A stretch of DNA of 64,000 bases from positions 5,399,001-5,463,000 of the forward strand of contig NC_091972.1 of the NCBI RefSeq assembly GCF_036711975.1, read 5' to 3'. Below the pieces are notes generated by a model, which was given only the letters and a program-made list of their open reading frames with translations, was not told the origin of the DNA and did no database searches. Each line of letters opens with the position of its first letter. The first letter of the stretch is position 1. A program made the position numbers and the translations under genes. This DNA comes from Onthophagus taurus (taxonomy: Eukaryota > Arthropoda > Insecta > Coleoptera > Scarabaeidae). Below are positions 25,930 to 35,388 of the stretch, piece by piece.

Positions 25930-28900
25930 TTACTGTTCCATTTCGTTCTTTTCGTTTTCATATTTTTCTAACATAGCTCTAACTAAAATACACTTTGTCA
26001 TATGGCATGAACAATATTCTGGGTGTTCAACCTCTTCAGGATCCAACATAACTACTTCAATTGTATAATGTCTTTCATTGCTAGTTGATCGAACTAATAA
26101 TAATTCATAAGCCATCGGTTCGGATTTTTCGACCAAAGCTTCAGAAGGAAGAACAACGGTTGTTTGTTTCCAATGAGTTGGTATTTCGTCTGGATCGGTG
26201 GATAAAATAACCGGTTCGGTGGAAGATGATGGAAACATACATGTAAACCAAATACAAATTCCTTGGTATCGTCCTTCTTTATTCGCAACGGCGATATGTT
26301 GAGCTTTAATGCAATCTAAATCTTCGATCGTTACTTCTCTCAAATCAATCCAAAGCACAACTTCGGGGTCGCCAAGGATTTGGTCGGGTTTTACTATCGA
26401 TGTATCGGGCTTTTGGGAGGCTTGTGCGCGTAGTTTAGTTGAAAAACTTTTCATTGAAACTCCTTCGACGTCTTCCCAAGCATCGTACATGTTTGGGACA
26501 CTGCAGGGTGCGGAATAAATCGTGGCCGATTCGGGAAATAATAACCCGTTTGGTTTTAAGAAATTATCTCTTGCGTATATTACGGAATCCAACATTCCTT
26601 CGTGAAGTAAATAAAATCCCATCCATTCTGAGATTATTACATCCACTTTTTCATTTTCGGGTAATTGAAGATTTTCAATACGAGTATGGATTACCTAAAA
26701 TATTCAAAAATAAATATTTGGGATTAAACATATTTTTTTCTCACCTCAATTACATTCTGAAAATTATTCTCTTTAACAACCTCTTCCGCTATTTTATAAA
26801 CGTCGCTAGCTTCAACAGCGTAAACTTTCGCTGCTCCAGCTTGGGCGACAAACACCGATAAAATTCCTGTTCCAGCACCAACATCCAACACAATTTTTCC
26901 TCGAAATTCCTCACGGTTATCTTCAATCGCTTGTTTATATGCTCGATTTCTGGCTGAGTCAGTCAACATTAATTTGTGTATCTAAAATAATTGAAAAGTC
27001 ACAAGATTTAATCATCGATTTTTTTGTAAATGTAATTGTTAGATAAAACTCGAACGTGTTGGAAATTATCAGTTAGTTGGTCGGGTACCGGAGTGCGTTT
27101 AACACGTTTAATAAAATGGTTGTTGCGAAAAAATTTATTTATGTTAAACCGTTTGTGGGGATGCCCACAGCGGATAATGTCCAAATTGTTGAGGAGAATT
27201 TACCGGAAATTAAAGAAGGAGGTAATTAACTTTGTTTTATTTTAAGAATTATATTAATGCTTTTTGAATAGAATTTTTAGCAGAAGCTGTGTATCTTAGT
27301 GTTGATCCTTATATGAGAGCATACTCTAATAGTTACACTCTTGGTCAACAATTAGAAGGGGGACAAGTTGCAAAGTAAATTCAATTAAAAGAATCAATTT
27401 AGATAAAAACATTTTATTTACAGAATAATTGAATCTAAAAATCCTCAATACCCAGTTGGAAAGCATGTTATGGCATATTTTGGTTGGAGGACTCATTCAA
27501 TTTACGACGGAACCCAACGAGTTTTTTTAATCCCAGACGAAACAATTCCTTTATCTTATTACTTAGGAATCGTTGGAATGCCAGGAGTAACAGCTTATTT
27601 CGGCACTTTTGATATATTAAAACCTCAATCAGGCGAAACTATCGTTGTTACTTGTGCTGGAGGAGCCGTTGGAAGTCAAGTAATAATCATCACCACTTAA
27701 AATTAAAAATAAACGTTTTATGTTTGAAGGTGGGCCAGTTGGGTAAAATAAAAGGTTGTAATGTAGTTGGAATTGCGGGTACCGACGAAAAACTTGATTG
27801 GTTAAAAAAAATTGGTTTTGATCAAGTTATTAATTATAAAAAAACACCAAATTTAGGTGAAGCCTTAAAAAAAGCAGCCCCAAATGGTGTGGATTGTTAC
27901 TTTGATAATGTTGGAGGAGAAATGGCTTCAACGATTATTGCACAAATGAATCCTGATGGTCGTATCGCTGTTTGCGGCGCTATTTCGGCTTATAATGATA
28001 TTGGAGAACCCGTAAAAGGTAAATTAAAAAATTAATTTAATACTAAAAGTAAACATAATAATTAAATCGAAAAAATGTTATACGTATTATTTATTTATGT
28101 TTATTACGCAACATTCCTAAAAATTACTGGATCCTCAACGATTTTGTTATCACATAGGTTGAAGGTCACTATCTTGTTATTTATATCTTATTTATCTTTA
28201 AATGGGCTCGTAAAATACTACAACAATAAATAATTCAAAAAATTAATACATATAATATAATTTTAAAATTTATTTTAGCAACTCCGATTCAAAGATATAT
28301 GATTTTTGGGCGTTTAAAAATGGAAGGTTTTCATGTTTCGTCCCTTTTGCATAGATGGCCCGATGCGATCAAAGAGTTATTGGGCTATTATAAAACTGGA
28401 AAACTCCAAACGAAAGAAACAGTTACCGAAGGTTTTGAAAATATGTTAAATGGATTAATTGGTATTCTCAATGGGGATAATATCGGAAAGGCCATCATTA
28501 AAGTTTAAACATTAAAGATGAACATTTATAAACATTAATGAAAATAAAGATGTTGTTTTGAAACAAATTGTGATGTATGGGAAAAATACTAAAGTGTATT
28601 TATGAAATAAATTCATTAAATTTATTTTCAATAACAATCAAAAAAAAAAACAAAATTCTTGATTGACTTATAAATATGTTTTTTTTTAACTTTTTATATC
28701 AAAATATTTTTTGACAAAAGTTTGTTATCAGTTAATCGCTGCCTTTTGAAAGACAGAGATTTGAAAGGCTTTGGTGTACCTCAAAATTAATCTATTGTTT
28801 CTTTTTTAAGATTAGTTACGCCTTACGTACAAAATAAATAAAATTAGCAGAAGAAAACGTTCTCCTCGCTTTGCGATGATTGCTAGGATCGTCCAAAACT

Positions 28901-34900: not shown

Positions 34901-35388
34901 AATATAAATAAAAATTAATTAATTATAAAAAATTTAAGAACTATTAACACACCACCTGTATATTGCCTTCGTTTTTCTTAATTAAATTTTTTTTAGCAAC
35001 AATTTTACAACCAACAATAGTTTTTAATGAGTTAACTGTCACTGGTTTTATAGTGAAGACATGGTTGAATCGTTGGAATGAGGGTATTGAACAAAACGCG
35101 AAATGGATAAAAGAAGGGAAATTAAAGTGTAGAGAAACAATAATTGATGGTTTTGAAAATATGCCCAAGGCGTTTATCAATATGTTAAACGGTGGTAATT
35201 TCGGAAAATCAATAGTTAAAGTTTAAAAATGTGTTTTTTAATTGAAAATAAATTCATTTAAACAATTTTTGATTTAAATTTTTAAACCGAATCCACACGA
35301 CATAACCTCAAATATTTTTTTGAAATAAAAACAAACTCACCTCTAAATCTTCGTAACTTTGGAAATAATCGTAATCCATCGTGTCCAT
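25930..35388 (-). CDS. Type I protein arginine N-methyltransferase (PRMT6/Art8-like)
   Basis: Transfers methyl groups from S-adenosylmethionine to protein arginines. Three exons: 35341-35388 ([16 protein letters not shown]), 26745-26981, 25930-26694. All junctions are phase 0, giving 349 residues, the compact core size. Motifs in order: [17 protein letters not shown]; motif [10 protein letters not shown] (about 47-55); the double-E loop [13 protein letters not shown] with Glu118 and Glu127; and the THW loop PTHWKQT. The C-terminal barrel ends [15 protein letters not shown]. Intron 1 is 8,359 bp and encloses four + strand reductase genes with only 115-135 bp to spare at each end. The 48-bp first exon is easily missed. 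Assignment to PRMT6 or Art8 is by general likeness only. Confidence 0.9.
27116..28508 (+). CDS. Prostaglandin reductase 1-like, copy A
   Basis: Zinc-independent medium-chain dehydrogenase/reductase of the PTGR1 (leukotriene B4 12-hydroxydehydrogenase) family, an NADPH-dependent alkenal/one reductase of the cytosol. Exons 27116-27221, 27272-27374, 27424-27679, 27730-28018, 28279-28508; 327 residues (human PTGR1 329). Visible motifs: [36 protein letters not shown], the Rossmann turn [41 protein letters not shown] with the conserved Tyr, and the C-terminal [10 protein letters not shown]...GKAIIKV. First of four tandem copies inside the methyltransferase intron; it starts 135 bp from the methyltransferase exon 2. 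Confidence 0.93.
28509..29690. other. Spacer between reductase copies A and B
   Basis: Contains the 3' UTR of copy A (AATAAA near 28604) and the promoter of copy B. A minus-strand open frame of 93 codons, 29180-29461, is Leu/Lys-rich and continues weakly beyond its stop in other frames, so it looks like an old transposon scrap. Not recognised. Confidence 0.4.
29691..30889 (+). CDS. Prostaglandin reductase-like, divergent copy B
   Basis: Same family and start architecture as copy A. Exons 29691-29796, 29846-29951, 30004-30174, 30229-30499, 30554-30889; 329 residues, frame intact. The cofactor site is kept ([19 protein letters not shown]), but the substrate side is altered. The invariant SxDPYMR is SIDLFVRY, the FGWRTH block is replaced by [10 protein letters not shown], and the catalytic-pocket CGxxSxYN is CGSTSCHN, with His (codon 30635-30637) where the family has Tyr. 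The intron inside FDN|VGGE is shared with copy D but not with A or C. Either a neofunctionalised or non-catalytic paralogue, or an early pseudogene without stops. Confidence 0.88.
31148..32537 (+). CDS. Prostaglandin reductase 1-like, copy C
   Basis: Exons 31148-31289, 31527-31629, 31688-31870, 31925-32537; 346 residues from the first ATG (a second ATG follows at once). Compared with A it has an N-terminal extension of about 12 residues ([12 protein letters not shown]). Motifs are canonical: [67 protein letters not shown] with Tyr, and [10 protein letters not shown]...GKAVVKV. Exons 4 to 6 of the other copies are fused into one last exon, so it has lost introns. Likely an active NADPH-dependent double-bond reductase. 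Confidence 0.93.
32776..35226 (+). CDS. Prostaglandin reductase 1-like, copy D
   Basis: Exons 32776-32893, 32951-33053, 33108-33290, 33368-33638, 34742-34853, 34997-35226; 338 residues. Canonical motifs: [70 protein letters not shown] with Tyr, and [10 protein letters not shown]...GKSIVKV. Intron 2 (33054-33107) is 54 bp, a multiple of three and free of stops, so an unspliced form would add 18 residues in frame. Intron 4 (33639-34741) is 1.1 kb and carries a minisatellite. It ends 115 bp from the methyltransferase exon 1 on the other strand. Confidence 0.9.
34090..34510. repeat. Degenerate 21-bp minisatellite in intron 4 of reductase copy D
   Basis: Repeats of the type AGCAGTATCTAGTCTTCTGCA recur. 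They sit in a higher-order unit of roughly 150 bp that contains CCAATAGAGATACTACTATT twice. It is the reverse complement of the array at 60580-61180. Confidence 0.8.

Follow-up and report, generated by a model that had tools for sequence, protein, structure and literature searches.

A tandem array of four PTGR1-like reductase genes predicted within the first intron of an arginine methyltransferase gene of Onthophagus taurus

Nested gene arrays in insects and the PRMT locus

The nesting of genes has a precedent in outspread/Adhr. In Drosophila, approximately 6% of the genes are estimated to be nested, often in the orientation opposite to that of the host (PMC3786989). Among arrangements of this type, the closest published match to the locus analysed here is above all that of Flo-2/GMC: in fly, mosquito, honeybee and flour beetle, most GMC oxidoreductase genes are clustered in an intron of flotillin-2 (PMC1891103). 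In the species shown in PMC3240667, silk moth and flour beetle excepted, the TipE cluster occupies the last intron of CG18675, and its expression is described there as poorly correlated with that of the host. An intron of Drosophila melanogaster dunce contains Sgs4 and four ng genes (PMC10835880).

We analysed a 64,000-nucleotide stretch of Onthophagus taurus DNA, referred to as the window, in which all four members of a PTGR1-like gene cluster (A to D) fall between two coding exons of a gene unrelated to them, an arginine methyltransferase (PRMT) gene. Very probably, this locus belongs to a known sort of intron-nested tandem gene array, with PRMT as the host of the four reductase genes; the arrangement is not new in kind. 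As at the PRMT locus, the Flo-2/GMC cluster comprises tandem, diverged oxidoreductases (27–69% identity in fly) in one host intron, the host strand is opposite to almost all the nested genes, and an exon beyond the cluster contributes residues 1 to 16 of the host protein (PMC1891103). The enzyme family and the host are different, and the Flo-2/GMC cluster is larger, exceeding 80 kb in fly and containing 10–12 genes in mosquito, honeybee and flour beetle, in comparison with four genes in 8.4 kb for the PRMT array (PMC1891103). Furthermore, conservation across species has been demonstrated for Flo-2/GMC (PMC1891103), whereas the PRMT array was analysed in one genome. The TipE/Teh genes share with the PRMT array the long-standing nesting of several homologous genes in one host intron, but they encode channel subunits, are found on both strands and are un-nested in flour beetle and silk moth (PMC3240667). 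The dunce intron also holds a cluster in an unrelated host, as here, although its members encode short glue-type proteins (PMC10835880).

PTGR1-like arrays in a PRMT intron were not named in the titles or the starts of abstracts among the matches listed, a search whose scope excluded most subscription journals. Literature titles and abstracts yielded nothing on point for tandem insect prostaglandin reductases, and neither did the matches listed for beetle nested genes with tandem duplication. The PRMT array is a compact addition to the homologous arrays already known from single host introns, and could be used to examine whether nesting restricts the gain and loss of members. It also matters for annotation, as a 16-codon first exon separated from the next exon by four other genes is easy to miss.

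The host methyltransferase gene and its first exon

The PRMT gene is encoded on the minus strand by three predicted exons. Exon 1 (35341–35388) consists of 16 codons, includes the YFxxY stretch and is followed by the donor GTGAGT. Exon 2 (26745–26981) encodes IHKLMLTD and the SAM-binding region, and exon 3 (25930–26694) extends to the stop codon and carries PF22528 (PRMT_C). Intron 1 (26982–35340) measures 8,359 bases and is a phase 0, GT-AG intron, with exon 2 starting at 26981 directly after TTATTTTAG. The second intron spans just 50 bases. The coordinates, phase and frames of exons 1 and 2 are those given by the sequence-only reading, a model's earlier interpretation of this DNA.

The three joined exons encode a protein of 349 amino acids, which matched 64 distinct PDB entries, class I PRMTs, at E ≤ 0.001 (the best 60 of the 64 were listed). 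The top match (E 1.4e-58) aligns from residue 5, that is, from within exon 1, which supports the exon join of the sequence-only reading; some PRMT7 and PRMT9 alignments start only at residues 16–18. Both the sequence and the alignments identify features of class I arginine methyltransferases (YFxxY, HEGM, THW and PF22528). PRMT1, PRMT2 and PRMT6 score alike and favour no single class for the joined protein. We presume that YFxxY, HEGM and THW have their usual roles in enzymes of this class. Three further PRMT-type loci were found in the genome among the best candidates scored, and on the basis of sequence we take these to be PRMT1-like (L003), PRMT3-like (L004) and CARM1-like (L005).

Exon 1 is well supported as a prediction from sequence. 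It contributes the YFxxY stretch, and the spacing agrees with the PRMT1-like gene, in which this stretch is encoded unbroken and the alignment spans the proposed exon 1/exon 2 junction. The CARM1-like gene likewise encodes an unbroken YFQFYGYLSQQQNML that aligns over the junction. The PRMT3-like match lacks an unbroken YFxxY stretch and is therefore neutral with respect to exon 1.

We also scanned the host strand, over the 37,019 bases of the window that lie upstream of exon 2, for the pattern [YF][FYML]xxYxxxx before GT, counting GTGAGT, GTAAGT or GTAAGA as a strong donor. The scan returned 10 GT sites, four of them open to an in-frame ATG, and a strong donor was present at just one of these four, 35340; because the pattern was written after exon 1 was known, this result is not blind. 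In 200 second-order Markov sequences of equal length, sites with an ATG averaged 0.56 (maximum 3), and those with both an ATG and a strong donor averaged 0.02. Among exons carrying a YFxxY-type pattern, the scan identified no other ATG-started first exon within 26982–35340. The sequence-only reading had named a different first exon between 26982 and 27115 as the finding that would overturn it, and no open candidate was recovered there by this motif. The sole further motif match within 26982–35340, at 31314, was rejected as an alternative first exon, having an in-frame stop and no ATG. We likewise rejected the notion that exon 1 is a stray PRMT fragment, as tblastn of the PRMT protein against the window recovered the three exons and the next match had an E-value of 2.2.

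The four reductase genes and their history

Genes A (27116–28508; five exons, 327 amino acids), B (29691–30889; five exons, 329 amino acids), C (31148–32537; four exons, 346 amino acids) and D (32776–35226; six exons, 338 amino acids) are all located on the plus strand. Their frames are intact, their introns are GT-AG, and each of the four encodes PF16884 followed by PF00107 above the curated cut-offs, in agreement with the earlier description of four opposite-strand PTGR1-like genes in this intron. TCAGT, considered as a core promoter word but too weak a signal to serve as evidence, was absent from the 150 bases preceding genes B, C and D.

Identity with human PTGR1 ranges from 39.8 to 50.8% across the four proteins. 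In PDB searches, which covered PRMT, gene B and gene C, the prostaglandin reductase 1/leukotriene B4 12-hydroxydehydrogenase (PTGR1) group was the best match for both gene C (E 1.7e-92) and gene B (E 4.2e-70). In NCBIfam, B and C, the two proteins run, both had TIGR02825, the equivalog for leukotriene B4 12-hydroxydehydrogenase, as their top family; however, their scores (253 and 337.2 bits, respectively) fall far under the curated cut-off of 579.85, and PTGR1 substrates cannot be assumed for them. As members of this family, the array reductases presumably clear alpha,beta-unsaturated carbonyls.

Genes A, C and D retain the tyrosines of DPYMR and ISxYN, which we take to be the positions of tyrosines 56 and 256 of a plant relative, whereas gene B lacks both tyrosines and has DLFVR and STSCHN instead. 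Tyrosines 56 and 256 are placed at the active centre of the plant reductase (PMC6099575). These substitutions suggest that the activity of the gene B product may have been changed or lost.

The 206-amino-acid exon of gene C gave eight genome matches among 12 candidates scored, all eight of them within the array. PF00107 was found at 13 places among the best candidates scored, four in the array and nine elsewhere. Stretches of 3.5–4 kb around these nine places were compared with the proteins of genes A to D and two mammalian PTGR1s, and two of the nine were additionally read as open frames. L026 matched with 29–32% identity (E 6e-7 and 1.5e-6), L024 with 24% identity (E 9e-8) and L025 with 20% identity (E 0.019), whereas the remaining six gave no match to these proteins at E up to 1. 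As none of the nine places is PTGR1-like, every PTGR1-like gene detected is located in PRMT intron 1, although a member elsewhere could be missed, since the genome search with PF16884, limited to the best candidates, recovered only two of the four array genes.

The array is old. Pairwise identity among the four proteins is 40.2–58.9%, and NG86 estimates for the six pairs gave dN of 0.32–0.56 and dS of 1.3–2.2, the latter near saturation in every pair; the excess of dS over dN is a rough sign of purifying selection on genes A to D. Gene D has five introns, and it shares three of their positions with A, four with B and three with C. These shared positions favour tandem duplication at the DNA level over retrocopying, and we infer that the array arose by unequal crossing-over. 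The branching order is weak in the tree of the four reductases (supports 0.33 and 0.71), in which gene B has the longest branch (0.85, vs 0.32–0.37 for A, C and D). When the four proteins were searched by tblastn with E-values up to 1, no relic of a fifth reductase was detected in the gap between A and B or in the long intron of gene D.

Several other features of the array were observed. The 50-base phase 0 intron of gene A (27680–27729, after codon 155) occupies a position absent from B, C and D and is a candidate intron gain. Intron 2 of gene D (33054–33107) is 54 bases long, in frame and stop-free, and its retention would add 18 residues. The 1.1-kb intron of gene D (33660–34730) contains a degenerate repeat with at least 201 genome matches, often locally grouped (40 of 104 candidates scored). 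The A–B gap contains an open frame of 95 amino acids (29180–29467, minus strand) with no Pfam match, for which the genome search found no other copy of the surrounding stretch; a repeat origin of the gap was rejected, as that search returned only the gap's own copy.

Fit of the array in the intron and competing explanations

The sequence-only reading had the array filling the intron entirely, which overstates the fit. From start to stop codon, the genes span 6,433 of the 8,359 bases (77%), their coding sequence amounts to 4,032 bases (48%), and genes A and B are 1,182 bases apart. At the margins the fit is close: 134 bases separate PRMT exon 2 from the start codon of gene A, and 114 bases separate the stop codon of gene D from PRMT exon 1. 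Two AATAAA motifs are positioned 3' of gene D, at 35247 and 35324, and solely by use of the second might the mature mRNA of gene D reach PRMT exon 1. Given these gaps and motif positions, mature transcripts of host and array hardly need meet. The earlier claim of antisense overlap over the full array could accordingly hold only for the unspliced PRMT pre-mRNA. The proposed coupling between the two loci, in which a change in copy number alters the length of the host intron, is a matter of geometry only.

We propose that a single founder gene located inside, or inserted into, PRMT intron 1 would have given rise by old tandem duplication to the four PTGR1-like, NADPH-dependent reductases. PRMT would be transcribed leftward from upstream of 35388, and the 8.4-kb intron 1, with the array antisense inside it, would be spliced out, connecting the catalytic core with the short first exon. 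Each reductase gene would form its own rightward transcription unit. Both the transcription of these genes and the splicing of the long PRMT intron are predicted from the gene models.

This nested arrangement would be lost if the PRMT mRNA started near exon 2 (26982–27115) with translation from the methionine of IHKLM, in which case exon 1 would be a decoy or minor start and the array would sit beside the gene. Exon 2 does contain an in-frame ATG, five codons in; a shared promoter could be housed in the 134 bases that precede gene A, and TCAGT occurs there at 27069 on the plus strand, though it fits gene A better than PRMT. We rate such a start as highly improbable, because the resulting protein would drop the YFxxY stretch kept by the PRMT1-like and CARM1-like genes, and the combination of ATG, frame and strong donor observed at exon 1 is rare in the Markov control. 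TCAGT is also present upstream of exon 1 (35510, minus strand), a weak sign given the approximately 0.16 occurrences expected in that stretch. It is unlikely, too, that one or more of the reductases, gene B foremost, is becoming a pseudogene. The two missing tyrosines and the long branch of gene B would fit such decay; nevertheless, the frame, the splice sites and the two Pfam domains of gene B all remain intact, and NG86 comparisons of B with the other three genes put dN/dS at approximately 0.27–0.37.

Nesting could also be functional, with the array regulated by PRMT transcription in the antisense direction or by control elements common to both, and with selection holding host and array together. 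The compact fit of array and intron is compatible with this idea; shared control was the subject of speculation by the authors of the Flo-2/GMC study (PMC1891103), and expression divergence through transcriptional interference between nested genes is reported for Drosophila (PMC8467205). Against it, PMC3786989, which cites one comparison without significant correlation for host–nested pairs, and PMC3240667 give cases in which the expression of host and nested genes is uncorrelated or poorly correlated, and we consider functional nesting very unlikely. The boldest version, a whole PTGR1-type family captive in the PRMT intron, with three ordinary enzymes and one member lacking both active-centre tyrosines (a pseudoenzyme or a new chemistry) kept in place by regulation shared with the methyltransferase, has in our estimate a similarly slight chance of being correct.

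Of two telomere-type repeats sought in the genome, six copies of TCAGG gave no match and six copies of TTAGG gave two overlapping matches at a single internal site, a result that is not decisive for placing the organism. Outside the PRMT locus, the window contains a frame for a Radial spokehead-like protein (37086–38729, plus strand), which adjoins the 5' end of PRMT. An APH phosphotransferase-family open frame was identified at 39050–39481 on the minus strand, and an open frame of 456 amino acids at 2860–4230 matches DUF7869.
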